The notes under the pieces: model-generated | What the model was told of the DNA's origin: nothing | Databases searched by the model: none | Seen by the model: the letters and a program-made list of their open reading frames with translations, nothing else | Part shown: one piece after another, positions 22,068-63,573 of the stretch | Layout of the letters: every line of letters starts with the position of its first letter | Position numbering within the stretch: the stretch's first letter is position 1 | NCBI GenBank assembly: GCA_950295325.1 | Contig: OX485805.1 | Span: forward strand, 8,186,501-8,250,500 | Length of the DNA stretch: 64,000 nt | Reading direction: 5' to 3' | From: Polytrichum commune | Taxonomy: Eukaryota; Streptophyta; Polytrichopsida; Polytrichales; Polytrichaceae | Translations under genes and position numbers: made by a program

Positions 22068-22560
22068 ATGAGGATCTTTATATTGTGGTGGTTGTTCTGT
22101 GCATGCGCCTGGTCACTTAATAATGTTGTTCTCGGCTTTGCAAAACCGTTTGCAGGTGTTATTTTTCATTGCAACAATTTGCAAAATTTTGGCAAGATCT
22201 ATATTGTTTCTGCATTTCGTTGTATCTTATATCCAAGCAAATCGTGTTACTGCGAGTAGGGTACTCGTTGTTGAAATTCTTGACTGCGGGACTGTTTGAT
22301 GTTGTCTATAATTAATTAGTCATGCGACACATGATCGGATTGCTGGACTTGAATACTCAATACATGTTGGTTGTATTAGTTGTGCTGAGATCCAACTTTA
22401 ATTGCAGGATGATGGGGCTCTCACTACAAGACTTACCGACGGCGAGGCGGTTGAGATGGATATCCACAACAACTTTGATCGTCGTGATGTTGTTGCTATT
22501 GGGTGAATTCTCCACCTGCAGCGGATGAGCACGATCTACACAACCATTTGGGGTGGTCCG
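22068..22560 (+). pseudogene. EXORDIUM-like gene, 5' part (broken)
   Basis: An ATG at 22068 opens a hydrophobic signal-peptide-like stretch (MRIFILWWLFCACAWSL). An exon then begins after the acceptor TTTAATTGCAG at 22408 and reads to GGT-GGT-CCG at 22560, directly before a GTCAGT donor. An in-frame TGA sits at 22504-22506. The exon end joins in phase 0 to 29101 to give GGPVLTKPIHINIVW, which matches my recollection of the conserved start of EXORDIUM/PHI-1 cell-wall growth proteins (GPVLT-x-PI-x-I-x-x-x-WYG). How the signal-peptide exon joins 22408 is unclear. Identity is motif-based inference; the gene is dead as it stands. Confidence 0.45.
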
Positions 22561-22566
22561 GTCAGT

Positions 22567-22569
<3 letters not shown>

Positions 22570-22597
<28 letters not shown>

Positions 22598-23738
22598 TTC
22601 TAGTTTTGGATTATAGCCAAGTGTTCAATCTAAGCTCATGAACCTTCACTTTATACACCTTGCAAATACGGATTTGTTTGTTATAAATATAATAATCAAA
22701 AAGACGAACGTGGAATCATGAAATTTATCTTACATACATGGAATGCAAATGCAATTACCATGTGAAGACATTTTTCATGGGTGTGGATGAATGGAGCAAA
22801 GTAACCCGGGTTAAGGAAGGGGAACGCGTCTTTAACCCATGGTAAACTTAGGGTTTGACAGAACTTACCACGGGTAAGATCTTCAATATAAACCCTCAAA
22901 CCCTAATGGAAGCTCTTTTTTACCATTCACACAAGAGCTTGGTGCGGTAACTTAGTACACACTTACTGGGATACTAGATACGTGTGTTAAGTAAAGGATT
23001 CTAGAGCTATTTACCAAGCGGAGTATCCTACTTGTGGTGTTACACACATGGCTAAGGCACAGGTTTGAGCACTCATTTGATGTTGTGTAATGAGTGTTAT
23101 TATTTGAAGTACTATTGTGCATTTGATGTAAGTTTATGTGTGCGACATGGATAACAACTGGGTTATGCTGCTATTTACCTCGTGTACGTAACTAATCCTC
23201 AATTATTTGTTGGTTGGTTGCATGGGCACAGGTGAGGCAGACCCTTCACACTCTCAATACAATGGTGTATTGTGACTATGACATATTATGCATTTCATTT
23301 GGTTAAGACTACTAGGCGCATACCCTGGTATGTATTCCATATGTATAGTAGTTAGGTTACTTATATGTTGGAGCAAGGCATGAAGATAGGTGGTTAAATC
23401 TACCAAGGTATGGAATAGTCAGCTACAATTTGTTAAATGGTACTTGTGAACAATATATGAATACCTTGAGTATAATGCACATACTTTTGAAGCACAGTAT
23501 GACATAACATAGCACATTTATGTGGTTTACATACAATCAGACATGGACACAAATACTGTACATTGTGCATTCATAGCATTAAGGTATAGTATAGGAAGGT
23601 TATGGTTTGAAGGACTTAGTTGTGAGAGGGTTCCCACCCACCCACCCTTGCAAAGCAATGAGGAAGATATTGAAGGATTAGGCCTCTGAAAGGAGGAAGT
23701 TCATGCTTTGCATAAAGCATTGAAAAGTCAACTCTCTC
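22570..23738 (+). repeat. Left terminal direct repeat (pseudo-LTR) of the Penelope-like element
   Basis: Same sequence as 27846-29014. It opens with a CT dinucleotide run, unlike the TG start of ordinary LTRs. It contains an inverted pair TTAGGGTTTGA / TCAAACCCTAA (near 22848 and 22893), which is also telomere-like in wording, and GGGTTAA / TTAACCC nearby. A 67-residue open frame on the minus strand appears in both repeats but has no support as a gene. I looked for the hammerhead ribozyme core CTGATGA...GAAA known from some Penelope-like repeats and did not see it. Confidence 0.8.
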
Positions 23739-23873
23739 TGGATTATCCTTTAGTGGTGTGGAAACCACTACCTAGTCCTTCATATTCTTCTAACATTGCT
23801 TTACATTCTCTGTGACTGACTAACATCGCAGAACAATAGCAAGGAACCGGCATGGAACAGCGAACTCGTAGCT

Positions 23874-25409
23874 ATGGGGTACGGCCCACCGCTACCTGCG
23901 CCCATTCCTGCGGTGCAAACCACACTGTCCGCCATAGATCTCCCGGAGTTACACAGATTCATCCAAGAGAATGACAACACAGCACTTACGAACTGCGAGG
24001 ACGAAGGTGGGCATACACCGCTTCTCCTCGACTCACTTGATCTCGCTTTATGGACATCCCTGTTTGTCACAGCAACTACAGACGCAGGCAAAACCTTGGC
24101 CAACATCAAGTCTGCACACAGCAGACTAGGTGACTTGCTAGTACAAGATGAGCTCGAAAACACGCGATCCATAGGAGTATGTTCGATGATAGAAGAAACA
24201 CTCAAACTGGCGAACTGCGACGCATTGGAGGCTAACTCGTCGCATGCCGTGGTAGTATCGGTCGGGGAGGGAACTGGGGCCAGCAGCACAGCTCACCCTC
24301 TGCTGGCTAAGCTCAAGATCTCTTCCGTGGAAATGTCTGCACTTGAAGACTTCACAGAGGACATCAACTCATCGCAAGCAGAGAAGGAGAAACACACAAT
24401 GGTCAATACTAAGGGACCCCTGGTTCCGGTAAAACCACCGCGATGCGTTGAGTTACTGGTAGCAGACCAGCAACACCGAATGTGGGCGATCGGCAACACA
24501 AACTTGCTCGCACCCATTTCTGTATTGATGTGGAAGACGTGGGCTGGGCTCTCGGATTCAGATGTAGAACAATGCACGAAGCAGGCACTCAATAACATTG
24601 GGGTACTAAGAGCCCCAGTAGATCTACTGCCTGCATTCTCACTCAATATGTTCGAGCATTCAAAATGCACGACCACAGAGGTGAAGCTGCACACTAAACA
24701 AGATCTACCCACAGGCTACAACAGGAAGGAGTCTCACTTAGCGGAGCTCTGGAATGTTCAACGCCCTTACATGAGATGCTTATGCAATCCAAGAGCTGTC
24801 AGTGGGTGTAAAGGATCTATAATCTGGTTTGACCATGCTGTATGGACAATGGTCAACAAACTGGACATGTTCTTTCCGAATCAACCCACCAACAACACTA
24901 GGTTTGCTGCATTCATGCTATGGCTTAGCAGTGCAGCAAAAATTGCAGTGAAGGCTGCAATAGTGTTCCACATTGGGAGGGAATACATGGTGATGGCGGC
25001 TACACAGCTTGCTGAAAACTCTACTCAAAAACTACTACCAGATCTGAACGATGCTCCACTTGCAGTCAAGATTGAGCGACTCCTAAAAGGACCGAAGTTC
25101 TCTTTATTACACCCTGGATCCCCTAGCCCTGCACCTTCGCCATTCAAGAGACAGCGCTTGAACCTGAACACGCCACCTTCGCAGCAAGGTGCGCAAGGTG
25201 CACAAGGAGGGAGAAGGCGACCCACAGGTGCTCGAGGGTATACTCCACGCGGTGGCAGGTTTCGGGGACGCGGCATTGGCCACTACCTCCAGCCTCAGGA
25301 AAATTTCAATGGCACGCCACCCAGCCAAGCCAGGGTAGCGAACGCCGGAAATATACAAACTACAGATGGCCATTCCCCGCTTAAAGGGAAGGTTCTGCTG
25401 TGGGAGTGA
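23874..25409 (+). CDS. ORF1, gag-like protein of the Penelope-like element
   Basis: 511 residues, uninterrupted. No known domain in the first ~410 residues, which are largely soluble with several cysteines. The C-terminal ~90 residues are basic and low in complexity: SPSPAPSPFKRQRLN, then GARGYTPRGGRFRGRG, an RG-rich type of RNA-binding tail. Position directly upstream of the RT ORF inside the same terminal repeats suggests a nucleoprotein role like Gag or LINE ORF1p. That is inference. The codon use is more GC-rich than ORF2. A donor-like GTAAGT lies downstream at 25437-25442. Confidence 0.65.
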   Translation: MGYGPPLPAPIPAVQTTLSAIDLPELHRFIQENDNTALTNCEDEGGHTPLLLDSLDLALWTSLFVTATTDAGKTLANIKSAHSRLGDLLVQDELENTRSIGVCSMIEETLKLANCDALEANSSHAVVVSVGEGTGASSTAHPLLAKLKISSVEMSALEDFTEDINSSQAEKEKHTMVNTKGPLVPVKPPRCVELLVADQQHRMWAIGNTNLLAPISVLMWKTWAGLSDSDVEQCTKQALNNIGVLRAPVDLLPAFSLNMFEHSKCTTTEVKLHTKQDLPTGYNRKESHLAELWNVQRPYMRCLCNPRAVSGCKGSIIWFDHAVWTMVNKLDMFFPNQPTNNTRFAAFMLWLSSAAKIAVKAAIVFHIGREYMVMAATQLAENSTQKLLPDLNDAPLAVKIERLLKGPKFSLLHPGSPSPAPSPFKRQRLNLNTPPSQQGAQGAQGGRRRPTGARGYTPRGGRFRGRGIGHYLQPQENFNGTPPSQARVANAGNIQTTDGHSPLKGKVLLWE

Positions 25410-25436
25410 GAATTAGTGAACTTGAGGTTTATTTAA

Positions 25437-25501
25437 GTAAGTTTTGGATAGCTTTTAGGATTCATCCTAACAGCTACTTCCTCAAAATTTTGAACCTGCA
25501 G
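25437..25501 (+). other. Candidate small intron between ORF1 and ORF2
   Basis: A strong donor GTAAGT (25437) is followed by a branch-point-like TCCTAAC (25465-25471), a pyrimidine-leaning stretch and CTGCAG ending at 25501. The ORF2 frame is open from about 25474. ORF1 already stops at 25409, so with this donor splicing would not fuse the two proteins; another donor inside ORF1 would be needed. Penelope-like elements are known to retain introns. Confidence 0.35.
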
Positions 25502-25545
25502 ATACAGGTCGCACATTACGCCACAACACTCTTGGCCGTTATTAT

Positions 25546-27648
25546 GTGGCACGTGACAAGAACACGGATAGAACCGGGATAGTACACGTAAACTACTGTA
25601 GTAGAGCACTTGAGTGGGTAAATATGAAACAATTATTCTCCGAAGTGTTCAATCATTTTTCGGTACCACATCTTATACCTCTGCTGCTTAACATTATGTT
25701 CGCATGGAATTTTTTACCTAATGTCTCCAGATTTTGCTACAAACCTGCTATGGTGTTCAAAGATTTTCATGTGAGTTCACTCATGAATGATTCATACGAG
25801 TGTATTTGTAACAGTTCTAAGAGACTGGTACAATTTTTAGACCCGGATACTAGGAATGAAAACAATATCGATCCAAGGGCGCATGTACGCACCATGGATA
25901 CGAATATAATCCACCATCGTGAATTAAGGGAAGCAATGGCCTTAGGATTGAATCATATACCATTGAAAAATACTAACATACGTGAGGCTATCCAAGTGAT
26001 AGCGGATACTTTTGGACAGGTTTGTCAACTTTTACAAGTGGACGAATACTTTAACGTGGAAGGTGCATCTAGGATGGTTCGTACGATGTCAAGAGACAAA
26101 TTATTATCAGCCATGAGGGAAAACCTATTTGGTTTCAGGTATTCCAAACCATATCTTTTCTCTGACAAGGCAGTTGATAATGAATTGTCTTGGCTATTGA
26201 AGCATGTTTTCATATCCGGACTAGATAAAGCATCTAGTAATGCTTGTTTCATATGTATACATCACATAAGACACCAAGCATTACTTAGACTTAATAGTCT
26301 TGACTTTGAACCATGTAGGCATAATAATTTGTGGGACTCCATAGAGAATGTTACGGACAAGATTAAGAAGGAACTAAAATCCCTCTTACCGGAGTTACCC
26401 ATACATGAGGAAGAACTTCCTTATATTATGGCAATATACAAATTCCACAAAAAGAAGTATAGATGGATTTCCAATGCATTTGGAACAATCTATGTAAACA
26501 TTGCCACACTCCTTACCATTTCAACTATGGCATTACTTGAAGAGGTCAAGGAATGGGCAAATACCACGATTAAAGGATATAATAATTTCCTTGGTATAGA
26601 TACATCAATATACTGGATTATTGATGCAATTACAGATTTCACCCTAAATATCCCTGAAAGAATCAACAACATATATGTTGCTGATATCACTAGATGCTTT
26701 GAGTCTATTCCAATTTCGGGTAAAGACACACTTTATGACGCTATGGAATTTATCACTCACATTGGTATAACCAATATGAGACGAAAACATCCTAGGTCGG
26801 AACAATTCCTTTGGATCAAGATTAATGACAAAGGAATTACCACTAAAGCAGTATGGGCATCCACATGCCCTAGACATGGTGAATGGTTCCCAATACCAAT
26901 CACTAAGTTCTTGCAAATCCATAAATGGTTGACGACAAACTGTTATGTACGACTGGGTGACCAAGTATGGAAGCAAGTACTTGGCATACCCATGGGGTTT
27001 TCTTGTTCACCACTTTGGTGTAACCTTTATCTCTTATCATACGAGATAAAATTCATCCAAAGACTAGCTAGACTTGGACAAATTGAAATCATGTCCAAAT
27101 TCAAACATGCGTATCGGTATATTGATGATTTGTGTTGGCTTAATGTTGGGAACGCTAACATATTCCTCGATCCTACACAACCTAGACACATGGATAATCC
27201 GTTTTGGATATACCCATTGGATATTATTGAAATCAAAACCGAGGTCTCTCAGTTTTCCGAAAACCATCCACAGTCTGGCATCAAGGCACATTTTATGAAT
27301 GTCCTCATTACCGTTACAAATGAGAACTCTGGTATGTTTATCATGCAGAAGTTCGATAAACGACGTGAATTACCCTTTAAGTACTCGCAGTTTATAAAAT
27401 TCAAATCGAACAGACCAGTTAAACAGGCTTACAATGTGGTAATTTCTCAAACGGTGCCCATACTGTACCTGTCAAGTAACCCTGGGGTAGCTCTGTACGA
27501 AATACAGGCCCTGTTTACTGTACTCTCAAATAATGGCTTCCGCAGTACCAAACTACAACAAATCGTGATTAAGTTCCTGACTAACAACCATTTTCCTGCC
27601 TTGAGGTTTGATAAGAGCCATCTTCTGCAACTGCTACAAGGTATGTAA
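25546..27648 (+). CDS. ORF2, Penelope-type reverse transcriptase without endonuclease domain
   Basis: 700 residues from the GTG at 25546. The first in-frame ATG is at 25624, and the frame is open from about 25474, so the true start is uncertain. Residues 86-120 have ECICN...HVRTMDTNIIHHRELR, the Penelope-type N-terminal segment. About 228-245 has DKASSNACFICIHHI. RT motifs: YKFHKKKYRWISN (about 297-310), motif A VADITRCF with Asp at 380, motif B GIPMGFSCSP (480-489), motif C YRYIDDLCW with the Asp pair at 527-528. The thumb-like region HFMNVLITVTN (about 582) to NNGFRSTKLQQIV closes the domain. No GIY-YIG, RNase H, integrase or tyrosine recombinase follows. It likely primes on free 3' ends, as proposed for endonuclease-deficient Penelope-like elements at telomeres. 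Confidence 0.85.
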   Translation: MARDKNTDRTGIVHVNYCSRALEWVNMKQLFSEVFNHFSVPHLIPLLLNIMFAWNFLPNVSRFCYKPAMVFKDFHVSSLMNDSYECICNSSKRLVQFLDPDTRNENNIDPRAHVRTMDTNIIHHRELREAMALGLNHIPLKNTNIREAIQVIADTFGQVCQLLQVDEYFNVEGASRMVRTMSRDKLLSAMRENLFGFRYSKPYLFSDKAVDNELSWLLKHVFISGLDKASSNACFICIHHIRHQALLRLNSLDFEPCRHNNLWDSIENVTDKIKKELKSLLPELPIHEEELPYIMAIYKFHKKKYRWISNAFGTIYVNIATLLTISTMALLEEVKEWANTTIKGYNNFLGIDTSIYWIIDAITDFTLNIPERINNIYVADITRCFESIPISGKDTLYDAMEFITHIGITNMRRKHPRSEQFLWIKINDKGITTKAVWASTCPRHGEWFPIPITKFLQIHKWLTTNCYVRLGDQVWKQVLGIPMGFSCSPLWCNLYLLSYEIKFIQRLARLGQIEIMSKFKHAYRYIDDLCWLNVGNANIFLDPTQPRHMDNPFWIYPLDIIEIKTEVSQFSENHPQSGIKAHFMNVLITVTNENSGMFIMQKFDKRRELPFKYSQFIKFKSNRPVKQAYNVVISQTVPILYLSSNPGVALYEIQALFTVLSNNGFRSTKLQQIVIKFLTNNHFPALRFDKSHLLQLLQGM

Positions 27649-27845
27649 CTACTACTACTATTATTTACAGTACTTCATAAAGGGAGTAGTTACAGTTGTA
27701 TAATACAAATAGGCATATACAATTCTCACGAGAGTGAGGGAGAAAATAAATAGGGGGACTGGTATGCATACCGTGAGTGGATGCATAACCAGCATCCACT
27801 CCTAAAGACTACGAGTTATGACCTACCAGGGGTATGGTGGAGGGA

Positions 27846-29014
27846 CTCTCTCTCTCTCTCTCTCTCTCTCCCTTTCTAGTTTTGGATTATAGCCAAGTGT
27901 TCAATCTAAGCTCATGAACCTTCACTTTATACACCTTGCAAATACGGATTTGTTTGTTATAAATATAATAATCAAAAAGACGAACGTGGAATCATGAAAT
28001 TTATCTTACATACATGGAATGCAAATGCAATTACCATGTGAAGACATTTTTCATGGGTGTGGATGAATGGAGCAAAGTAACCCGGGTTAAGGAAGGGGAA
28101 CGCGTCTTTAACCCATGGTAAACTTAGGGTTTGACAGAACTTACCACGGGTAAGATCTTCAATATAAACCCTCAAACCCTAATGGAAGCTCTTTTTTACC
28201 ATTCACACAAGAGCTTGGTGCGGTAACTTAGTACACACTTACTGGGATACTAGATACGTGTGTTAAGTAAAGGATTCTAGAGCTATTTACCAAGCGGAGT
28301 ATCCTACTTGTGGTGTTACACACATGGCTAAGGCACAGGTTTGAGCACTCATTTGATGTTGTGTAATGAGTGTTATTATTTGAAGTACTATTGTGCATTT
28401 GATGTAAGTTTATGTGTGCGACATGGATAACAACTGGGTTATGCTGCTATTTACCTCGTGTACGTAACTAATCCTCAATTATTTGTTGGTTGGTTGCATG
28501 GGCACAGGTGAGGCAGACCCTTCACACTCTCAATACAATGGTGTATTGTGACTATGACATATTATGCATTTCATTTGGTTAAGACTACTAGGCGCATACC
28601 CTGGTATGTATTCCATATGTATAGTAGTTAGGTTACTTATATGTTGGAGCAAGGCATGAAGATAGGTGGTTAAATCTACCAAGGTATGGAATAGTCAGCT
28701 ACAATTTGTTAAATGGTACTTGTGAACAATATATGAATACCTTGAGTATAATGCACATACTTTTGAAGCACAGTATGACATAACATAGCACATTTATGTG
28801 GTTTACATACAATCAGACATGGACACAAATACTGTACATTGTGCATTCATAGCATTAAGGTATAGTATAGGAAGGTTATGGTTTGAAGGACTTAGTTGTG
28901 AGAGGGTTCCCACCCACCCACCCTTGCAAAGCAATGAGGAAGATATTGAAGGATTAGGCCTCTGAAAGGAGGAAGTTCATGCTTTGCATAAAGCATTGAA
29001 AAGTCAACTCTCTC
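27846..29014 (+). repeat. Right terminal direct repeat of the Penelope-like element
   Basis: Copy of 22570-23738 at offset 5,276. It is preceded by GTATGGTGGAGGGA and followed by ATGATGGGATAAATT. No clear target duplication outside the CT tracts; insertion into a CT microsatellite would hide one. Confidence 0.8.
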
Positions 29015-29100
29015 ATGATGGGATAAATTCATGCACGATCCACTAGCTATGTGTCACAAAAAACTAACTAAACAGTTGTGATGGTGCAAACTTTGTGCAG

Positions 29101-30215
29101 GTTCTGACGAAACCTATCCATATCAACATTGTGTGGTAAGGTACCTAGGCCGCGAATGAGAAGAATGTGACCAAAATTGCTCTCTCGTCGCTCACACCAG
29201 ATGCAGGGTTGTCTATCGCGACGTCATGACGGTGTCGTGCCGTCATGTCGTGTCGTGTCGTGACGGACCCCTCCGTCACGACACAATAGGGTCCACGTAG
29301 GGTCAACATAGGGTGGGTAAAATACTTACCTTCTTGCCAAGGTGGCGTCCTATGTGGCAGAAAACGCCGACGTGGTCGTGGATATGCCTAGCGCCAAGTA
29401 AATCATTTTGCCATTTTGTTTACCATTTTGTTAAAATCAAAGTAGTAAAAAACGACTAAGGAGGGTGTGGGGCGGACGGGGGACGAGGGTGGGGCGGACG
29501 GGGGTGGGGGGGGGAACGGAGCGGACGGGGTCGGGAACGGGGGCGGGAACGGAGCGGACGGGGTCGGGAACAGGGGCGGACGGGGGGGCGGACGGGCTCT
29601 AGTAAATTTTTCCCCACTTTACCTTTACTTTGCTGACATGTCATCACACGTGGACATTGTAAATCCTACGTGTCTGAATTGGGTTAATGTATTTACACAA
29701 AAAAATCGGTAAAATTCAAGTCCGCCAGGATAAAGACAGCATCCGGCATAATGTCGTGACGGATACGTGTCGTGACGGCACGACATTATGCCGGGATTAC
29801 CCTCCGTCACGACACAATAGACAACCCTGACCAGATGTGAAGATCACTCAGTCCCCGAATTTGAGCAATCTCTGGAAGTTGATGACAAAGCACTACCAGG
29901 ACCTGCTTGGACAGGCTCACACATTCGTCACCAACAAGGACAGGGTTACGAAGGAAATGGGTTCTCTCAAGAGGTCACCAACAGGGATTAGGACCCAAAG
30001 AAGATGATTTTGAAACACATCAAGACTGGCAATCTGCCTGCTGATTACGAACTGGGGATTTACTTTAATTGCCCTGACAGTCGCAGCCCGTATCCCCTCT
30101 CGGCTGGCTTCATGATGTGCTACACAACTATTTGTGCGTATGTCATCCTTACCCTCGCTTGCGAAAGCCGTAATCGCTTGTACACTTTAGCTCCATTTTT
30201 TCTTCATGCGAACTG
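29101..30215 (+). pseudogene. EXORDIUM-like gene, 3' part, split by a hAT MITE
   Basis: The exon starts after CTTTGTGCAG at 29101 and reads VLTKPIHINIVW, then in-frame TAA (29137-29139) and TAG (29146-29148), then NEKNVTKIALSSLTPD up to 29203. After the MITE (29204-29829) and its 8-bp duplication the same frame resumes as VKITQSPNLSNLWKLMTKHYQDLLG, which fits the family's conserved W-x-L...Y region. A frameshift near 29995 leads to GNLPADYELGIYF, like the family's LP-x-x-x-x-GIY segment. The remaining codons to 30215 are unassigned. Stops plus two insertions make it a pseudogene. Confidence 0.5.
29204..29829. mobile_element. hAT-type MITE, copy 1 (626 bp)
   Basis: Termini CAGGGTTGTCTAT...ATAGACAACCCTG with an exact 8-bp duplication ACCAGATG on both sides (29196-29203 and 29830-29837): the hAT hallmark. 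Subterminal regions are packed with GTCGTGACGG-type palindromic words. A perfect 16-bp stem CCGGCATAATGTCGTG pairs 29743-29758 with 29779-29794. The middle (about 29464-29600) is a GC-rich GGGGCGGACGGGG array. No coding capacity. A second copy in the opposite orientation is at 62570-63338. Confidence 0.9.
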
Positions 30216-30410: not shown

Positions 30411-31259
30411 ATGCTCACCAGTGGAGGGAGTGTTTTGTCAGCCAAGCAGGAAGAGAAAATGAAGGTGAAAGGAGATGTTCTATACATAAGGTTTGTCAAT
30501 CAAAACGTTGGTTTCGGTGGAAAGAGGTCCATATCGTCTGTGGAGTCTAGTATGTCAGCAGATGATCAAGTTGGTAATGGCGAGGACCTGCCTATGACTG
30601 AGCAACAGAAAGATCAAGTCATTGCTACAAAAGATGATTGCCCTTTGTCGCCTCCAAGTGGAATGGAGGCAGTTGGTACCGGAGAACAAGTGCCGTCAAG
30701 AGCAACCCGCCTCCGAAGTAAAATTGCATTCTTGAAAGATGTCCAGCGGTGGCAGAGGGAGATCGATAACACAAGGCGCAAATTGAAGAAGCTTGGGCGG
30801 TACGATATCTTTGAGTTGGAGACAAGAGATGTTGGTAAGAAGGCCATGTTCCATATTTGGTGTGAAGAATGTAATGACAAGTACCATCGTTCAGGTACTA
30901 ACAAACCATCCGAGGCATGTGCCAATTACTTGCGATCTCACATCAATAATGATGGGCACATCAAGGCTTATGAAGGCCGAAATGGTTTAAATTCATCCTT
31001 AGAAAATCAGCCCATTGTGAGTGTTGAGGAAACATTGGCTGAAAACAAGGGTAGAGTTGAAAAAACGTTGGACCGAATCAAACAATTTGCTCTGGATTTC
31101 CCCACAAGTAGCTTTGAGATTGTTGAAGGCACTGTTGGAAACTACTCACGATTGGGGGCTCTAAAAATTTGTTGCACCCTAGATTTGAAGTGGTTGAATT
31201 TGTTTCCAAAAACATCGTCGTTGGAGTCAAATCTTCGTGAGCATGTGAATGGCTCATAA
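30411..31259 (+). CDS. BED-like zinc-finger segment of the transposase-like block
   Basis: 282 residues; the ATG at 30459 is a better start by context, and a separate short frame at 30262-30462 may be an upstream exon. Residues about 100-130 are basic and coil-like (RWQREIDNTRRKLKKL). A finger is visible as C151-x2-C154, then H177-x5-H183 (WCEECNDKY...SHINNDGH), the spacing of BED/C2H2 fingers common at the N-terminus of hAT and related transposases. The last ~70 residues resemble no family I know. The frame overlaps the next one (31249-31443) by 11 bases, pointing to a frameshift or splice near 31240. Confidence 0.5.
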   Translation: MLTSGGSVLSAKQEEKMKVKGDVLYIRFVNQNVGFGGKRSISSVESSMSADDQVGNGEDLPMTEQQKDQVIATKDDCPLSPPSGMEAVGTGEQVPSRATRLRSKIAFLKDVQRWQREIDNTRRKLKKLGRYDIFELETRDVGKKAMFHIWCEECNDKYHRSGTNKPSEACANYLRSHINNDGHIKAYEGRNGLNSSLENQPIVSVEETLAENKGRVEKTLDRIKQFALDFPTSSFEIVEGTVGNYSRLGALKICCTLDLKWLNLFPKTSSLESNLREHVNGS

Positions 31260-31552
31260 TGTTGTAGTTGGAGCTTCTATTGGAGCTGCACAGCTCTACA
31301 CCTCCGACCCAAAACCAAAAGGACGACCACCGAAGCCGCCTTCAGGGAAGGACCATGCTCAACGAGATTTGAGTTCTTTCCTTGTCCATGTCAATGAGCT
31401 CCATCATGTTGGATCGAGTTCTAATTCTTGTGATCATTCATGACAATCACAGAATGTATTGTCTATGTTTGGACGTGTGTGTTGGGGCTTATGGGATAAC
31501 AGGTGGGAGTACAATGGTATGCCGAATCACACATGAAGTGTACGATACAAGA
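31249..31552 (+). pseudogene. AT-hook-like linker segment
   Basis: Begins MAHNVVVGASIGAAQLYTS and carries KPKGRPPKPPSGK, an AT-hook-like basic motif. An in-frame TGA at 31441-31443 is followed in the same frame by QSQNVLSMFGRVCWGLWDN up to a stop near 31552, where coding shifts to the next frame. It bridges the BED-like segment and the main region. Confidence 0.4.
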
Positions 31553-33848
31553 GGGCAGCCAAGAAATTTTTGTAAGTGGCACATTCCGTCATGTTAATTG
31601 CATCCGGGTATCTTCATCACCTCAAGGATTTCCAAACTTTAGATGTGAAGCATGCTCATCCATTCCAAAAGAACGTGATTTATGTATGAGAGTCTATAGG
31701 TCTAAAATTTCAAAGTTTAAGCAAGGTAATCGAAATAGTGGAGGGGGCAGGCGTCTAGGTTACTTTGGAGTTTCCGAAATCATGAGGGTGGCTCAAACTT
31801 CAAAACTAGATGTTAGAGCTTTGAGGTTTGAATTATGGAGGGTAAAGGCTAGAGTGGCCACCCTCTCTGTTAGGGTTAAGTGTTTGCGTGAGTCTTTTGT
31901 AGAATTCTGCAACAGAGGAGATTTGAAGTCTTTATGTAGAAATATTGTGCATGCTCATAAGATGAGTAAGTTTGAGGGTAAGGAGTCTCTTTGGGACTTT
32001 TTAATTGACATTGTAAAGAATGTTGGAAAGGAAGACCCCAGGGTTAAACTTTATAGTGAAGCCACAAAAGTTATGTTTGAAACTATCAAACTTTGGGGTG
32101 GACCTAGGTTACATCATTTTTTATCTTTGAATATGGGTGGTCCATCGCTAGATACAACAAAGAGGGATACTAGGAAAGCCATGAAGTATAAAGTCGGTGA
32201 GAATGAAGGAGTCTTCCAGCACCTTGCTGTTGTTTACAAATCTGCTATGAATCTTGCATCAATGCCATTGGGCACTATTCTTGCTATGCTAGCAGAAGAT
32301 GAAACAGTGGTGAAACGATCGGTTAGATGGGTAGCAAGGGATGATGTGCTAATGGGGTTTTGTGGTCCAATTGACAATCATAATTGTATTTCAGATTATA
32401 TTGTCGAAGTGGGATTTGGAGTCACAGGTTACGAAAGTATTGTGAATTCGTTCAAATCTAATGTGCGTGCTCATTATGCGAGGATTTTGATTGTTAATCC
32501 TTTGCATGCACGTCTGCCCAGATTAGTTGCAGTAATCCAACTTACATGTAATAGGTTTGATAGCAAAGATGTGCGAAACCAGTGGGAGAAAGTTAGGGTT
32601 CTTTGGGGTAAACATCTTTTTGCTGTTCTTGGGCCATTGATTGGGCATTCTTTAGATGGAGACGCTAGACGAAGAAAACTTATGCTTGAAGATTTCACGA
32701 GTTCAGGAGGCAACCGGTTTAGAGTACCATGGGATGGTTGGTATTTCAGTGCCCGTTTCCTACACAATAATGACGTATATGGCCTTCATGATCAGGATTT
32801 TGTCCACAACGGAAAAAAACTTGTGAATCCTTTAGATTTGCCAAGCCGTCATCTCATCGTTGGCAATGAGAATGCTACTTTGAATCACATTTATTTAGTG
32901 TATCACTCGTTTTCAGTTGATAGGCATGGGCTACATGAAGGAGGCATAAAGCGTGAAGATCGTCAAAATTGGACAGCTGCACAGAGGTTAACATCTCGCA
33001 AAGTACAATTATGTTTGCAGCAGCTGCAACAGAATCCAAACCATCGGAAGGAGAGAACTAAAGGTACAGAGTTGTATTTACAAATTCTTGCGTTGTATAT
33101 AGATATATTCTTATCACCTCATATGTCTTTATTCGAAAGAGTGAAGGCAGCGGCAAAAATATCGTTCTTTTTCTGCTTGTGGAAATTGTGGTTCCATCTC
33201 GGGGTACATACGTACAATTTAGCAACTAACTTTATTAGTAGACAGGCATATTTGGATATACAATTATCACGTCACTACAGTGTTCTATTAATTAAGTTGT
33301 TTCGAGACCGACACAACCATTTAGAAATACCTCTGAGCCTTACGAGTTCGGACGCATGCGAGATTTTCTTTAGCAAAGTCGGAGGAATGATTCAGAATGA
33401 GCGAAATTATGATGGATGTGATCTAGTTGAGAGCGCTGGAGCAATTGCTCGCATTGCAGAGTTTGAGGCGAATCCTAAAGGGCCGCAGTTTGCTCGGGCT
33501 CATAAAAATCAAACTCATATTTGGACAGAGTTAGAGAAGAACTCTACTTTACCGTTGGCTAACTTAGGCGATTATGCAGGGTTAGAATGAGATGATCAAA
33601 TCATTTCAGCGTTGAAGCTAGGCTTTATTGAGGCTCCAATGTTATGTGCCGAGTTAGGTATGAAACCTGCGAAAGTTCCAATGAACAGCTGGTGGGAACA
33701 ACCTTGGGTCCATGAAAGGAAGCTAGAGAAGGAACTTTTTAGTAGCATGGAAGAAGAAGAGTGTGATGCATGGGGAGGTCACTTCATTGTCAAGTTGACA
33801 CCACGTGCGGACAAAGTTTGCTACCCCTATATTACATGCCATACATAA
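31503..33848 (+). pseudogene. Candidate DDE-type transposase core (family unassigned)
   Basis: 695 residues to a TGA at 33588-33590; the same frame continues to 33848 (DDQIISALKLGFIEAPM onward), so the stop is probably a point mutation. Near the start, FRCEACSSIPKERDLCMRVYR is a small C-x2-C motif. Candidate catalytic acids: D266 in LAEDET, D385 in GHSLDGDARRR, and E620 in SDACEIFFSKVGG, with GFCGPIDNHNC between. The D/D/E order and the final E-x-F-F-S are reminiscent of P-element/hAT-type RNase H-fold transposases. This is my proposal, not a database assignment. The C-terminus holds LGVHTYNLATNFISRQAY and a downstream acidic stretch. Confidence 0.5.
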
Positions 33849-34098
33849 TTTTTAAATTTATGATATTTTTTCTACATATACATAACCATTGACAGTATCT
33901 TTTGTATATTTTTTTGAAATTTTTAGTCATCTTTATTTTTTTTAGTAATTGTTTTAGTTCAATTTTGTGTCATTCTAGTTAGAAATTGTATGTTTTATGA
34001 AAAAAACAAATCATCAAATTTAGTTACCACTTTTGACTATGTCATAGGTACTGTGTATATCTACTCATGAAAAAAAATTGATAAAATTTTGACCCATT

Positions 34099-34962
34099 TT
34101 GGTGGTGCAACTTACCAAAAGAAGATTTTTTTTGGTCGCACGTGGTGTTCAACTTGACAATGGAGTGATCTACCCGTGGTGTGATGTTGATCACATACAT
34201 GATGCTACAGGTGAGGAAGGAGACATTTGTGGCAAAGGGCAAGCTGTAACAGGTGCAAGTTCATCATCTACAGAGGCTGAAAGAGGTGAAGTCTCTGAAC
34301 TTATGAACGACGAAGTGGAGGTAGCTGGACTTTAGAGTGAGTTGAGGCATGTTCTTGATGATGTGCTTGATGAGCATGAAAGTTGTCAAGTTGTTTCAAA
34401 GTCAGTCTTGCCGTATGTAGAATTTGAAGGAGCTAAGATTTATAAGAGTACTCTTGTTAGTCAATTAAATGGAAATCCGACTTTGTCAAAAGATAGATTG
34501 ACTAGGATTAAGAGTGGCATAATTTATACAGAAGAGAAGGTCAAGACTCTAGCAAACCATGATACTTTGTTGAAACTTGGTTGTGACTGCGCGGTTGTAT
34601 TTCTTAATACACCTGAAGTTCAAACCATGAAGAAGCGAGGCAGACCAAGACTTTCAGCTCCTACTAAAATGTGGTTTTTAGGTAGAGTGTATAAGATGCG
34701 TCGGAAAATAATCAACCATTGGGTAGAATACAAAGATCCTATAGACTTGTTGGACCGCCCCAACAATGTAGAAGTTGGTTTATGTTGGTATCAAAAGTCT
34801 GCAGGGTTGAAGTGGAGTTATGATCTCACAGATCATATTATGGTAGAATTGGATACGGTTATTGCTTTGGCCAATTTGACGTATGATGCTGAAACAGGCA
34901 CGTACGAACTTCATCCAAGTGATGAAAAAGTCTTTAACGATTTTATAACTAAAAATCCATGA
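34099..34962 (+). pseudogene. C-terminal segment of the transposase-like block
   Basis: One frame interrupted by a single TAG at 34333-34335. The first part reads VARGVQLDNGVIYPWCDVDHIHD. The second carries KKRGRPRLSAPTKMW, an AT-hook-like motif, then WVEYKDPIDLLDRP and LCWYQKSAGLKW. No known domain. Same orientation and decay pattern as the upstream segments, hence assigned to the same block; the gap 33849-34098 is AT-rich and intron-like. Confidence 0.4.
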
Positions 34963-46839: not shown

Positions 46840-48082
46840 CAGTGTTCAAGATTGAAGTCTTCAATGCCCTTCAAACGCGATTTGGCCCTTCAAAATATAC
46901 CTCTCTCAAAACAACCCTTCAAAATGCAACCCCAAACTCAAAATGAAAACTTCACTTGACGTCCTCAAAAATTTTACACCCGTCAACACTGTAGCGCTAC
47001 AGTGACGAGGAGGTCGCTACAGTGACAACCTCAACACCTAGCAAATGATTCATTCAACATCGATCTGACTTGGAAATCAACTTTTTAGGTCTTGCAAAAG
47101 ATTGGAATCCAACCCAATCAGCTTGTTTCGTAGACACTATCTGGGTGTAAGTTTTGGCCTGACAACCAAACACCTAGGAAAGTTTCTCCGCGAGGTGGTA
47201 CCCAATGGGCAGATATTGTATGTTGATAGTTTTGGGTGTGAAAAAATGCATATCTTGCATTATGATTCCATGCCCGAGTGTGACGTAGGAGGCTCATTGG
47301 AGGCATGCATCATGTTGGGGAGGCAGTATGTGCAGAAGATCATCGATTCACTCAATGATCGATTTCTTGACTTGTCCATTTTCAATGCGGCCCGGCTTTT
47401 TAGCCCGAAGCACTATCCCGTAGATGAATTGGACAGAGGGACATTAACGGAACAATGGTTGAACCGGTTGGTGACACATTTCCGTTGGAGCGATGACCTT
47501 GTCAATGCAATGCGGAATTGCTAGAATTCGTGGAGATGTTATGTTCCGTTTGTGAACGCCGAAGTATGCAAGAAGCTTGGGTTTTTTGTGGCAATGACCG
47601 GGAGTTCATGATTAATTGGCCAACTATGATGTCGCTATGGCAAGCCATACTTGTGATCCCAACTAGCACTGCTGTTTGTGAGCGTGGTTTTTCAAAGCAA
47701 AATTGGGTTAAGAGTGAAAGGAGAACTAGACTCAACCTTGACACACTAGATGCTTTAATGAGGGTTAGTCTAAATGGGTTAGGAGTTGAATTCATGGATT
47801 GGGATAGTATTTTTGAATCTTGGAAAATTGGCACAAGAACCAACAAGCGTAGGGCATTATCACTAGAAGAGGTGGAGTTAGATGGTTGATTCTTAATTCT
47901 TCACATTGTATTGGAAGCATGCACCATATAAATCATGCATAAATTTAATATGAGTTTTTTATATTTTATTTCTATATTACTGAATTGACGTCTTGAATTT
48001 GAACTAGCCCTTCAACCGAAGGGCTCAAATTTTAGAGCCCTTCAAAATGAAACTCATATGAGGGCTTCAATCTTGAACACTG
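46840..48082 (+). mobile_element. Deletion-derived hAT element (1,243 bp)
   Basis: Perfect 18-bp terminal inverted repeats CAGTGTTCAAGATTGAAG (46840-46857 and complement 48065-48082), with the CAGTG start typical of hAT. Subterminal regions hold repeated CCCTTCAA words: three on the left (about 46868-46930), three or four on the right (about 48007-48068, both orientations). The flanking 8-mers (TTTGGACA, CACACCAC) do not match, so the duplication has decayed or was lost. Internal coding covers only the C-terminal transposase half (47102-47889). Confidence 0.8.
47102..47889 (+). pseudogene. hAT transposase C-terminal half with dimerisation region, frameshifted
   Basis: The first frame (47102-47524) has a helical region with ERFL-like NDRFLDLSIFNAARLFSP, as in the hAT core insertion. 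The second (47518-47889) holds the hAT dimerisation signature WPTMMSLWQAILVIPTSTAVCERGFSKQNWVK...NLDTLDALMRVSL. The two differ in frame. A tandem 5-bp duplication, AATGC-AATGC at 47504-47513, lies at the switch and removal of one copy would restore a single frame, so it is the likely cause. The N-terminal BED finger and the catalytic aspartates expected upstream are missing. It is a non-autonomous remnant. Confidence 0.7.
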
Positions 48083-52337: not shown

Positions 52338-52721
52338 ACTTAATTACATTTAATCACACTGACTTAACTAGTTCGATTGTGTATGAATACTTTGTGAAAG
52401 TAGAAGGTATTAACTAAAATATTATGAAATAAAAATTATTACAAATAAAACACTAATTTTAGCCCCATTTTAGACTGACAAAGACCCTTTGAATGGTAAG
52501 TCACAAAAATTATAACCTCAGTGCTAATGAGGATTTTGCAATGTTTTTGACTTCCAAATTAATTACATGCTTTATTGATGGTTTCACTTCGAAAAGGAAA
52601 TCCCAATCAATTGCTTATTTACTCAATGGAAGTGAACATGTATATTGGATTTTGAACCTTGAAAATGAAGTGCAATCAATATGGGTTATATGGACAAGCG
52701 GCCTTCAAGAATGCAAGGGTG
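52338..52721 (+). repeat. Half copy of the foldback element
   Basis: Colinear with 42655-43027 (right arm of the foldback element): TGTGTATGAATA(C/T)TTTGTGAAAG, GAATGGTAAGTCACAAA, TTGCTTATTTACTCAATGG, GGCCTTCAAGAATGCAAGGG. It stops where the arm would continue to its terminus. The 82-residue open frame inside it is spurious. Confidence 0.75.
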
Positions 52722-54105: not shown

Positions 54106-55782
54106 ATGCAGAGGGCTAGGCTAACAGAGCAGCTACTGAACGGGTCCACATTGAACAAGGACTCGGTGCAATCCATGAGCGTTGCATCCAACAGAGAGTC
54201 GCCCACTGCGATTTGCAACCGATGTCGAGGAGGAGGCAAAGTTCTCGGACCTCACGCGATCATCAACTGGACGTGGGTGCTCTTGGTCGCAGCGTTTGTG
54301 TGGGCCACTGTCGTCGCCTTTCAAGTAGGTCGGAACGGCCGATCGGGTAACCCTCAGGCCCTCGCTCTTGCAGGAATTCAAAGCAGTTCATCATGGTGGG
54401 TGCAGAGAGACATTAAAACATGGGGGACAAATGAGGTTGAATTGGGGAATCACTGGTCTGGAGATTTGCGGGAGCTTCAAGGTGCATGGAATCGTCTGTG
54501 TTTCGGCAAGACAGAGGAGACCATGCGAATGGCCTGTTTCGTAAAGAAGTGGCCGACGGGCGGGGCACCAGGTGGGATGGAACGGCATGCCATGACGCTG
54601 TACCGAGACCTAGCGAAGCGAGGCCATGAAATTCATGTCTTCACCTTGAACACCAACAATGACAACGTGAGCGAGGTGGAGGAGGGAAACCTCCATGTGC
54701 ATTTTTTCCAAACTACTGCGTTGGGAGCGGCAGCAGAAACATTGTGGGAAACTTTCATCATCATGAACACAACCAGCCCCTTTGACATCGTGCACACGGA
54801 GAGTGTGGCACTGGCGCCGCGTAGGGCACTTGACATTCCTCAACTCGCAGCTTCTTGGCACGGGATCGCAGCGGAAGCAATTCACAGCGACATCGTGAAC
54901 GACCTCCTGCGCAAGCCAGGGGAGCTTCGGAGCGACGAATTGCAGCAGAATCTGTTCGGGCGAATGTCACGGATCGTTGAGGAAATCAAGTTCTTCCGAA
55001 GCTACAAGCACCATGTGGCCATCAGTGACTACGTGGCGGATGTGCTCCGCACCATATACGAGATTCCAATGCGCAACGTGCACACCATCTATAACGGCGT
55101 CGACCCCAATTTCCAGCCTAATCCTGACAAGGGCAACAGGTTTCGAACCAAATACCAAGTACCGGTCACTGCAAAGCTCGTGTTCGGAACCGCTGGCAGG
55201 CTCGTGCGTGACAAAGGACATCCTCTGCTCTTCGAAGCTTTCTCAGAGGTTATCAAATCCCATCCAGATGTTTACCTTCTGGTTGCTGGCAGCGGACCTT
55301 GGCTAGACCGGTACAAGAAACTCGCCCCGAACGTCATCTGCCTTGGCCCCATGCCACCTTCGGAGCTCACCGATTTCTACAATGCCATCGATGTCTTCAT
55401 GAACCCCACACTCAGGTCGCAGGGATTGGACACCACGCTCCTGGAAGCCATGCAATGTGGGAAGCCTGTGCTCGCCACCAGATTCTCAAGCATCACGTGG
55501 AGCGTCATCATCAACTCGGACTTTGGTTACTCTTTCTCCCCCAACGTCGAAGCCATGGTTGCAGCGATGGAGGACGTGATCAGCCAAGGAAGGACATCTT
55601 TGGAAGCCAAGGCTTCCACACGCCAGGAGTACGCCAACCTCATGTTCACTGCGAGCAAGATGGGGTCTGCTTATGAGCGTCTTTTCTTGTGCATGAAGGA
55701 TGACAAGTATTGCATGTACCCATTGCCACAGGACTCATGCGCGGACATTAAGCACTCTCTCCCTTCTAATCCTGCAAGATAG
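54106..55782 (+). CDS. GT4-family glycosyltransferase, type II membrane protein
   Basis: 558 residues in a single exon, the one clearly intact host gene here. A short cytosolic part is followed by a signal anchor at about 52-74 (INWTWVLLVAAFVWATVVAF), pointing to the Golgi/ER lumen. The N-terminal GT-B half starts near 140 (MRMACFVKKWPTGG...GGMERHAMTLYRDLAKRGHEIHVFT) and includes FDIVHTESVAL and SWHGIAAEAIHSD. The C-terminal half starts near 358 (VFGTAGRLVRDKGHPLLFEAF) with LVAGSGPW and FMNPTLRSQGLDTTLLEAMQCGKPVLATR. The second Glu of the GT4 E-x7-E motif is E447; the first position is not Glu. From memory this matches the plant group that includes Arabidopsis AT1G19710/AT1G75420. Substrate unknown. 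The ATG at 54106 is the first in frame and fits the membrane topology. Confidence 0.88.
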   Translation: MQRARLTEQLLNGSTLNKDSVQSMSVASNRESPTAICNRCRGGGKVLGPHAIINWTWVLLVAAFVWATVVAFQVGRNGRSGNPQALALAGIQSSSSWWVQRDIKTWGTNEVELGNHWSGDLRELQGAWNRLCFGKTEETMRMACFVKKWPTGGAPGGMERHAMTLYRDLAKRGHEIHVFTLNTNNDNVSEVEEGNLHVHFFQTTALGAAAETLWETFIIMNTTSPFDIVHTESVALAPRRALDIPQLAASWHGIAAEAIHSDIVNDLLRKPGELRSDELQQNLFGRMSRIVEEIKFFRSYKHHVAISDYVADVLRTIYEIPMRNVHTIYNGVDPNFQPNPDKGNRFRTKYQVPVTAKLVFGTAGRLVRDKGHPLLFEAFSEVIKSHPDVYLLVAGSGPWLDRYKKLAPNVICLGPMPPSELTDFYNAIDVFMNPTLRSQGLDTTLLEAMQCGKPVLATRFSSITWSVIINSDFGYSFSPNVEAMVAAMEDVISQGRTSLEAKASTRQEYANLMFTASKMGSAYERLFLCMKDDKYCMYPLPQDSCADIKHSLPSNPAR

Positions 55783-62314: not shown

Positions 62315-63573
62315 CTAGTGATGTGGCAGTGATTGGGAGAGCTTGTTTTGCTGCTCAGAAAATTTCTCTCCTAGACCTTCTAGTGAAATTGCGATAGACT
62401 CAAGTTGTGCAACGTGTTTTGCAATAGAATCTCCTGCTTGATACTCACAGTTGAAGAACTGTTGCATGAGTAGAAATAATGACTCTTCAGAAACTTGTTC
62501 GTAGATCAATGTTAACCGATTCCACATAACCTGGGCGGTTTTGCACGTGACAAGCATATGCAAATGCTCCAGGGTTGTCTATTGTGTCGTGACAGAGGCT
62601 AATCTCGGCATAATGTCGTGCCGTCACGACACGTATCCGTCACGACATTATGCCGGATGCTGTCTTTATCCTGACGGACTTGAATTTTACCGAATGTTGT
62701 GTGTAATTACATTACCCCATTTCGGACACGTAGGATGTAAGATGTCCACGTGTGATGACATGTCAGCAAAGTAGAGGTAAAGTGGGGAAAAAATTACTAG
62801 CCCCCGATCCAACCCCCGTCCGCCCCCCCCCCCCCCGTCCGCCCCCGTTCCCAACCCCCATTCCCCCCCGTTCCCACACCCGGTCCCCCCCCCCCCCCCC
62901 CCCCGTCCGCTCCCTTGTCCACCCCTGCGTTCCCCCCGTCTGCCCCCGTTCCCACCCGTCCGCCCCCGCGTTCCCCCCGTCCGCCCCCGTTCCCACCCGT
63001 CCGCCCCCGCGTCCCACCCGTCCGCCCCCACGTTCCCACCCGTCCGCCCCGTCCGCCCCACACCCTCCTTAGTCGTTTTTTACTACTTTGATTTTAACAA
63101 AATGGTAAACAAAATGGCAAAATGGTTTACCTGGCGCTAGGCATATCCACGTCCACGTCGGCGTTTTCTGCCACATAGGACGCCACCTTGGCAAGAAGGT
63201 AAGTATTTTACCCACCCTACTCCGTTCCCCCTATGTTGACCCTACGTGGACCCTATTGTGTCATGACGGAGGGGTCCGTCACGACACGACACGTCATGAC
63301 GGCACGACACTGTCATAACGGCGGGATAGACAACCCTGAAATGCTCCATGTCAACCGAAGTGGCTATTATAGCACGTGCTGCACTGTTTTCTTCTTCCAA
63401 GCATTGATCAATGCCGGATCACCATCTATTGGACATAACTCAGTGCCATCAACAATCTTGAAAAACTCTTTGCCCTCTAGCACAATCTGGAGCTGATACT
63501 TGTAAAGCGGAAAATTCTGACCCGTGAATCTAAACAGTTGAGTACTTGACTCTACCTTGACGTCCATGATCAC
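62315..63573 (-). pseudogene. Ty1/copia gag fragment split by a hAT MITE
   Basis: Minus strand. From the ATG at 63573: MIMDVKVESSTQLFRFTGQNFPLYKYQLQ...VDGTELCP, a typical copia gag start (tail-to-head with the primer site). A frameshift in a K-rich stretch near 63395 is followed by AARAIIATSVDMEH. The frame is then cut at 63346 by the MITE and resumes beyond it as EHLHMLVTCKTAQVMWNRLTLIYEQ...KHVAQLESIAISL, the UBN2-type gag domain, to a stop at 62315. Pol is absent from the visible part. Confidence 0.75.
62570..63338. mobile_element. hAT-type MITE, copy 2 (769 bp), inverted relative to copy 1
   Basis: Termini CAGGGTTGTCTAT...ATAGACAACCCTG, exact 8-bp duplication AAATGCTC (62562-62569 and 63339-63346). 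Same subterminal GTCGTGACGG palindromes, ATTATGCCGG stem, and GC-rich core as copy 1, read in the opposite direction. The core array (62810-63060, CCGTCCGCCCC words) is longer than in copy 1. The open frames inside it are G/R/P low complexity, not proteins. Confidence 0.92.

Follow-up and report, generated by a model that had tools for sequence, protein, structure and literature searches.

The window, a stretch of 64,000 nucleotides from Polytrichum commune, contains a full-length 6.4-kb element at positions 22570-29014, which comprises on the forward strand a 5′ pseudo-LTR (pLTR; 22570-23738), ORF1, the reverse transcriptase (RT) encoded by ORF2, and a 3′ pLTR (27846-29014). The pLTRs are 1,169 bp in length and 100% identical over their full length. 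Both start with a CT tract, the junction CT run at the 5′ pLTR spanning positions 22567-22594, and the 3′ pLTR ends with CAACTCTCTC. A purine-rich stretch (27823-27845; ...TGGTGGAGGGA in the window copy) adjoins the CT tract of the 3′ pLTR and is similar among the copies whose junctions were printed; by eye, a short hairpin is possible within it. The ORF1 exon (23832-25409) carries a conserved CxC motif and an RG-rich tail; it encodes 511 aa from its first ATG (23874-25409) and 530 aa with predicted start exon 1, and its conservation between families extends upstream of the first ATG. The ORF2 exon (25502-27648) is open over 725 codons, giving 700 aa from a mechanically assigned GTG start (25546-27648) and 718 aa with predicted start exon 2. 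An earlier note on this DNA had described an intact copy with two identical 1,169-bp direct repeats, an uninterrupted 511-aa ORF with an RG-rich tail, an uninterrupted RT ORF with the Penelope-type motifs HVRTMDTNII, GIPMGFSCSP and YIDD, and the combination of LTR-like repeats with ORF1, all of which are found here. Its designation of ORF1 as gag-like has the RG-rich tail as its sole basis, and no known family matched ORF1 in family searches that included the window ORF1 and eight ORF1 proteins.

Genome-wide, there were 67 RT matches, and an 18-nt pLTR core was found in 458 exact copies as compared to none for the reversed control pattern; the element is therefore more than a chance arrangement. 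Direct repeats, the pLTR arrangement of Penelope-like elements, accompany 14 of 16 RT-bearing sequences. The RT profile matched a host telomerase exon (hhalign E 1.9e-5, probability 78%, approximately 84 columns), whereas a second telomerase exon covering earlier motifs yielded an E-value of 0.24 only, and the five other host RTs, two Gypsy-like and three LINE-like by motif-based labels assigned in this analysis, gave no match (E 0.09-0.96). Because the profile matches the host telomerase and none of these five RTs, the sequence comparison supports the assignment of ORF2 as Penelope-like. ORF2 has a dN/dS of 0.11-0.17 in four pairs, a set that includes L012/L013 and window/L010 and leaves out window/L013. 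RT relatives were absent from the viral contigs and prokaryote genomes searched, and the RT profile had zero matches among PDB sequences. The window RT sequence alone retrieved only GAPDH chains from the PDB (E 1.4e-5, residues 65-157), which we take as chance, and a weak NCBIfam match of ORF2 to group II intron RTs (E 1.3e-4, 21 of 300 bits) was likewise set aside.

The pLTR pairs are near-identical throughout, and in 8 of the 12 elements tested not one mismatch separates the two pLTRs. When lineages are compared, 21-121 pLTR differences are common to both pLTRs of each element and 0-5 are not; where lineages are 112 or 65-67 pLTR sites apart, every difference is shared. Since the pLTRs of each element thus change in concert, one pLTR appears to template both, and each cycle probably regenerates the pair from a single unit. 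Recombination and conversion act generally on direct repeats, and solo pLTRs are numerous in the genome. It is thus conceivable, if rather doubtful, that the likeness of the pLTRs reflects gene conversion after insertion and that solo pLTRs arise only from recombination between pLTRs, without reuse of a circular or tandem template. However, conversion would then have to be complete each time to account for the mismatch-free elements and the fully shared differences. Moreover, the first pLTR bases were lost in 23 of 34 solo pLTRs as compared to 2 of 9 full copies of the same types (Fisher p 0.023; classes counted by eye, with subfamily as a possible confounder).

Two tiny start exons are predicted inside the pLTR, one for ORF1 and one for the RT. 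Start exon 1 (23048-23062; ATG GCT AAG GCA CAG, encoding MAKAQ) is followed by a GT donor at 23063 and stands in phase 0 to ORF1; its motif is present in 11 of 13 copies tested and missing from L014 and L015. Start exon 2 (23222-23231; ATGGGCACAG) is followed by the donor GTGAGG at 23232 and stands in phase 1 to ORF2, and its 15-nt motif ATGGGCACAGGTGAG is identical in all 13 copies. Both are predicted to be spliced to the respective ORF; the acceptors alone are weak evidence for splicing, because in-frame AGs near ORFs are common. Start exon 2 and its donor are enclosed by a structured RNA of 125 nt (23134-23258), the second copy of which lies in the 3′ pLTR (28410-28534), each matching the model with 135 bits. 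The covariation of this fold amounts to 0.467 versus 0.197 in shuffles, none of 500 shuffles being as high, and the fold matches nothing in Rfam. A second RNA region at the boundary between pLTR and internal sequence, with double changes in 5 of 16 pairs, was weaker and is not claimed, and judged by eye the conserved AACAA strand does not pair consistently with the apical loop. The hammerhead ribozyme, which is common though not universal in the pLTRs of Penelope-like elements, was not detected with the Rfam models in the window element (E up to 5), in L001-L015 at gathering scores, or in L010, L012, L014 and L015 at E up to 3. The hammerhead core CTGANGA is absent from the window element; such strings in some other copies were rejected as hammerheads, given no Rfam match.

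The window element sits inside a (CT)n microsatellite that existed before the insertion. In two empty paralogues of the site (L098 and L099), a CT tract is bordered by the same flanks on both sides: the upstream host flank (22290-22566) is colinear with them, and the downstream flank (29015-29203, beginning with ATGATGGGATAAATTC) follows the CT tract. These empty sites bear out the CT-rich target proposed earlier. Nothing outside the CT tract was duplicated or lost, while a duplication within CT would be invisible. A host intron as the setting, also put forward in the earlier note, was not established, as the upstream flank is low-copy with three matches in the genome and no host gene was identified. 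The 5′ CT run reached 12 nt or more in 47 of 48 collected insertions, a count biased by the CT-starting query used to find solo pLTRs. This bias is smaller for 20 copies drawn from the pLTR-core list, of which 19 have such a run and one, L088, has no CT run. In addition, a host repeat bearing a CT tract is occupied by the element in L013, L017 and L023; among 18 further copies of this repeat, 15 contain the CT tract and three a pLTR end at the site. The 3′ end of the element is fixed, reading CAGCTCTCTC in most copies, and is found in 31 of 34 solo pLTRs. At its 5′ end the element abuts CT, and many copies have lost a little of the element sequence there. Truncation of the 5′ end on insertion is frequent in Penelope-like elements (PMC8969392, in part); it was not frequent here, as the 34 solo pLTRs start at the pLTR start or no more than approximately 40 nt from it, although the pLTR query favoured such copies.

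Taken together, sequence comparison makes it fairly probable that the element is a recently active Penelope-like retrotransposon lacking an endonuclease (EN-minus) that lives in CT/GA microsatellites along the chromosomes and is primed there without a cut of its own. Where a CT/GA tract is nicked, broken or unpaired, its GA strand would pair with the CUCUCU at the 3′ end of the RNA and prime reverse transcription, the element itself making no cut. After copying of the (CU)n at the pLTR start, the cDNA ending in GA could pair with the CT strand on the far side and thereby close the 5′ junction. Closure at the second (CU)n would yield a full element, and closure at the first could yield a solo pLTR. 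One template pLTR would give rise to both pLTRs of the new copy, as happens when the RNA template is circular or tandem. The pLTR would further provide alternative start exons for ORF1 and the RT via splicing, while the RNA fold would bury the RT start codon and donor and may prevent the splicing of genomic RNA or act as a binding site for the RT.

By EN-minus we mean that an endonuclease is not detectable, and ORF1 may contain a diverged one. In line with the earlier note, neither ORF of the window element matched GIY-YIG in the HMM search, even with E allowed up to 10, and 10 RT and 8 ORF1 proteins searched with E limited to 1 gave no match either. Nuclease, integrase, RNase H and protease families likewise had no match in either ORF of the window or in these proteins. 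It nevertheless deserves consideration, though we regard it as rather unlikely, that a nuclease does cut the CT target, be it a host nuclease drawn to CT/GA tracts or a domain of ORF1 that has escaped recognition, followed by ordinary target-primed reverse transcription. ORF1 is strongly conserved (dN/dS 0.04-0.09 in four pairs) and contains invariant Cys, His, Arg and Asp residues while belonging to no known family, and the microsatellite-targeting retrotransposons known from part of PMC4640811 have endonucleases. What speaks against a nuclease, apart from the lack of a match in both ORFs, is that the GIY-YIG gene closest to any RT copy lies 207 kb away (10 GIY-YIG versus 50 RT places on the large contigs). 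Single-sequence structure predictions, with a mean pLDDT of 34 and 37, were set aside.

Priming at CT/GA tracts along the chromosomes is consistent with the distribution of the copies. Only 3 of 50 RT places lie within 2 Mb of a chromosome end versus 3.45 expected, and their spread relative to the ends is chance-like (KS p 0.73), as is that of the pLTR core copies on contig 1 among the matches listed, which extend to 74.3 Mb (KS p 0.38). TTTAGGG repeats at the start of one contig, together with 13 matches to LOB-domain genes, mark the host as a land plant. The copies L002 and L003, located on different chromosomes, differ at two of 4,089 internal sites and therefore indicate recent movement. 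The telomere association that the earlier note gave as usual for EN-minus elements was thus not seen. An Athena-type telomere-associated element with internal copies as remnants would agree with the absence of an endonuclease, the two ORFs, the telomerase-related RT, and the citation of plant EN-minus elements as telomere-associated (PMC12477314, in part), but it is very improbable given the lack of RT enrichment at the ends, junctions consisting of CT instead of TTTAGGG, and a window copy that is internal and intact. It is just as hard to credit that the element is a LINE or an LTR retrotransposon whose RT is unusual. Its direct repeats are long and also occur as solo copies, and a purine-rich stretch precedes the 3′ one, all of which recalls LTR elements, but searches for endonuclease, integrase, protease and RNase H gave no match, the window site shows no fixed-length duplication, 5′ ends are variable, and the RT sides with telomerase.

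Of the interpretation in the earlier note, the RT affinity, the absence of an endonuclease, the repeats, ORF1, the intactness and the CT target thus hold. On a more speculative and tentative level, a telomerase-related clade may have left the chromosome ends, with a dinucleotide microsatellite taking over from telomere repeats the roles of primer and landing site, so that no endonuclease would be required; one pLTR unit would be copied twice, possibly from circular RNA, and a new structured RNA over the RT start codon and splice donor, possibly a catalytic one, would have taken the place of the hammerhead. Recent activity at internal CT tracts with no detectable nuclease would suggest that break-prone or unpaired microsatellites can act as ready-made primers, and would connect telomerase-like priming on short repeats with ordinary transposition. 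With several young copies, empty sites and pLTR pairs that are identical, this can be tested in a plant, and research on ribozymes and splicing gains a new object in the covarying RNA fold.

Among known systems, the Naiad/Chlamys elements reportedly show a microsatellite insertion bias, pLTRs and no canonical hammerhead, as Craig et al. are said to have described in 2021. They carry an N-terminal GIY-YIG that is linked to the RT via a CxC-motif domain, whereas we detected no GIY-YIG, and the CxC of ORF1 lies in a frame separate from the RT. EN-minus Penelope-like elements have been published for the plants Selaginella, Pinus taeda and Picea abies (PMC9033089, for Selaginella also PMC12477314, each in part), and EN-lacking elements of 4-6 kb with two ORFs have been described (PMC6431247, in part). 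Internal CT microsatellite targeting and the RNA fold are new features of such an element; among the matches listed in the literature surveyed, with subscription papers mostly outside, no EN-minus Penelope-like element targets CT microsatellites. Like the window element, the EN-deficient elements of bdelloid rotifers (Athena), fungi, protists, Selaginella and conifers combine a telomerase-related RT with the lack of GIY-YIG. They are considered to be mostly confined to chromosome ends through their inability to cut DNA, with telomeric repeats following a truncated 5′ end (PMC3846280, in part), whereas the present copies have no detected hammerhead, nearly complete 5′ ends, and internal CT tracts. 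Microsatellite-targeting non-LTR retrotransposons insert into simple repeats as well, but bear an endonuclease (PMC4640811, in part), in contrast to the present element with its pLTRs, its telomerase-like RT and no endonuclease found. Finally, Poseidon of Anolis carolinensis, a Penelope/Poseidon element, shares the pLTRs and a structured RNA overlapping the RT ORF start, which in that case is a hammerhead, but differs by its GIY-YIG endonuclease and preference for AT-rich sites; its reverse transcription starts where there is no homology to the cut DNA (PMC11167929, in part), whereas here the junction repeat matches the target.

The two direct repeats (pseudo-LTRs, pLTRs) bounding the element at window positions 22570-23738 and 27846-29014 are identical over their 1,169 bp, and both the ORF1 frame and the reverse transcriptase (RT) frame, ORF2, are open in this copy, as the earlier note had described. 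In Pfam, the RT frame yielded a weak RVT_1 match alone and ORF1 yielded none. Individual scans of ten RTs and eight ORF1s of the same genome added no endonuclease, integrase or RNase H; together with the domain search of the window ORFs, they bear out the claim of an RT lacking a recognisable GIY-YIG domain. Elsewhere in the assembly, the small contig C9, which may be an organelle genome containing mobile introns, carries three GIY-YIG open frames (25682-25933, 52353-52604 and 54650-54904). A profile of the ten RTs matched a host telomerase exon (E 1.9e-5, probability 78%, 84 columns) in an alignment centred on the GIPxG...SPLxC block, as opposed to E values of 0.09-0.96 for five other RTs encoded in this genome, two Gypsy-like and three LINE-like; the telomerase exon bearing the earlier motifs gave E 0.24. 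The comparison supports a Penelope-like identity of the element.

A CT-rich target had likewise been proposed, and empty sites settle this question. The flanks of the window insertion occur twice more on the same contig: in one empty paralogue (L098), GGTCCGGTCAGTTTTT is followed by a long CT tract and then ATGATGGG, and the other (L099) has a short CT tract at the insertion point. Compared with these sites, the window copy shows no duplication or loss outside CT. The element inserted into a CT tract. Among 14 full copies and 34 solo pLTRs, the 5′ end abuts CT, with the first pLTR bases often missing, and the 3′ end is fixed near CAGCTCTC in 31 of the 34 solos (exceptions L033, L047 and L048). 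At the 5′ end, 47/48 insertions have a CT run of 12 nt or longer (9 nt in L037), a count biased by the CT-starting query used to retrieve the solos; at the 3′ end, a run of 6 or longer was observed in 42/48. Because of this query, we sampled 20 of 100 listed copies of an 18-nt pLTR core, about every fifth place, with one copy already in the set being substituted; in all but one (L088), a CT run lies 477-752 nt upstream, corresponding to the distance of the pLTR start. L013, L017 and L023 are inserted in the CT tract of the dispersed host repeat GGTGTTGGCAAGCTT(CT)nTTTGTTGTAGTAGCTCC; at the corresponding position, 18 further copies of this repeat (L051-L068) contain a CT tract in 15 cases and a pLTR end in three. 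This tract has been struck repeatedly, by different Penelope-like copies. One copy (L007) sits directly behind the CT end of another pLTR, forming a tandem.

Within 12 of the 14 elements, the two pLTRs show no mismatch in eight, one in three (L004, L011 and L012) and four in one (L008). Between clearly diverged lineages, the two pLTRs of each element have 21-121 differences in common, with 0-5 not shared (112 and 0 for the window copy versus L009); the closer pair L011/L012 has 10 in common. As separate RNA copying of both parental pLTRs would let them diverge, both pLTRs of a new copy would derive from one pLTR, or conversion would have to be highly efficient. The best fit would be an RNA template, circular or tandem, that is read beyond one unit. 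Closure at the first CT tract could produce solo pLTRs. Alternatively, solos could arise by recombination, which yields identical products. In 23/34 solos, the bases immediately following the CT tract are missing (e.g. CCCTTTCT; L018, L020, L021, L024, L026, L027, L030-L038, L040-L043, L045-L047 and L049) versus 2/9 full-length copies of the corresponding types (Fisher p 0.023, classes assigned by eye), which may reflect a subfamily effect or a different mode of solo formation.

The mechanically called starts, GTG for ORF2 and ATG for ORF1, are not likely the true ones, because conservation begins upstream of both. We predict start exons within the pLTR that would be spliced to the two frames. 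In the 13 of 16 copies scored, the motif ATGGCNAARGNACAG/GT is present in 11 (not in L014 and L015) and ATGGGCACAG/GTGAG in all. In the window, the predicted splices would join the first start exon in frame with ORF1 (MAKAQ-NNSKEPAWNS..., 530 aa) and the second with ORF2 (MGTD-TGRTLRHN..., 718 aa). Acceptors that preserve the frame are present for ORF2 in 13/13 copies and, among the 11 copies bearing ATGGCNAARGNACAG/GT, for ORF1 in ten, that of L010 being unconvincing; since in-frame AGs are common, the weight rests on motif conservation. The pLTR also contains ATATAAACCCTCAAACCCTAATGG (22885-22909), a TATA-like sequence with the telo-box-like AAACCCTAA, which we take to be a possible promoter. 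About 100 nt ahead of the pLTR end, a CCCACCCACCCACCC stretch (23630-23652 and 28910-28930) is conserved across families; its cDNA strand would read GGGTGGGTGGGTGGG, a G-quadruplex motif.

A common fold of the region surrounding the second start exon, with 97.3% of cells paired, is shared by 12 selected sequences, which form about three diverged groups and are not independent of each other. The covariation score of this fold was 0.467 versus 0.197 ± 0.017 in shuffles (0/500 as high), and at most 0.131 once pairing partners were slid. Both-sided changes occur at 12 of 31 pairs, of which ten belong to helices 1 and 2, and the nearly invariant helix 3 contains the splice donor. Neither the number of double-change pairs (62/500 shuffles as high) nor that of further pair types (173/500) was outstanding, and no Rfam family matched. 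The fold may represent a replaced ribozyme, an RT-binding site or a splicing switch.

In the 408-Mb assembly (406 Mb in seven large contigs), there are 67 RT matches (identity 40-100%), 14 of them near full length without a stop, a lower bound since scoring was confined to the best candidates. Long direct repeats of 0.98-1.95 kb were found in 14 of 16 RT-bearing sequences examined, those of L010 being split in two pieces. The pLTR core occurs exactly 458 times, versus 0 for the reversed control pattern; the 100 places listed, all on contig 1, are compatible with an even distribution as far as the last one (KS p 0.38). Fifty RT places showed no enrichment near chromosome ends, with 1, 2, 3 and 9 within 0.5, 1, 2 and 5 Mb versus 0.86, 1.72, 3.45 and 8.62 expected. 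Two copies on different contigs (L002, contig 4; L003, contig 7) differ at only 1/1,073 pLTR and 2/4,089 internal sites, indicating recent movement. The dN/dS was 0.04-0.09 in four ORF1 pairs and 0.11-0.17 in four ORF2 pairs, with a fifth pair being saturated in each case.

The window also contains a hAT transposase dimerisation domain (47518-47886; PF05699, E 2.9e-7) adjoining an ORF at 47102-47524, and a single-exon glycosyltransferase gene of 558 aa (54106-55782; PF13692, PF00534 and PF13439). Three consecutive ORFs of 282, 695 and 206 aa (30411-34962), with no convincing Pfam match, are perhaps another mobile element. GC-rich tandem arrays at 29222-29820 and 62687-63322, on opposite strands, have related units and similar predicted ORFs and are apparently copies of a single repeat.

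Endonuclease-lacking Penelope-like elements are already known in plants (PMC9033089, PMC12477314), and known microsatellite-targeting retrotransposons bear an endonuclease (PMC4640811). A hammerhead that overlaps the beginning of the ORF is described for an Anolis element (PMC11167929), and the present fold is similarly positioned. Endonuclease-lacking Penelope-like elements are described as largely restricted to chromosome ends (PMC3846280); an element of this kind in internal CT microsatellites runs counter to that view.
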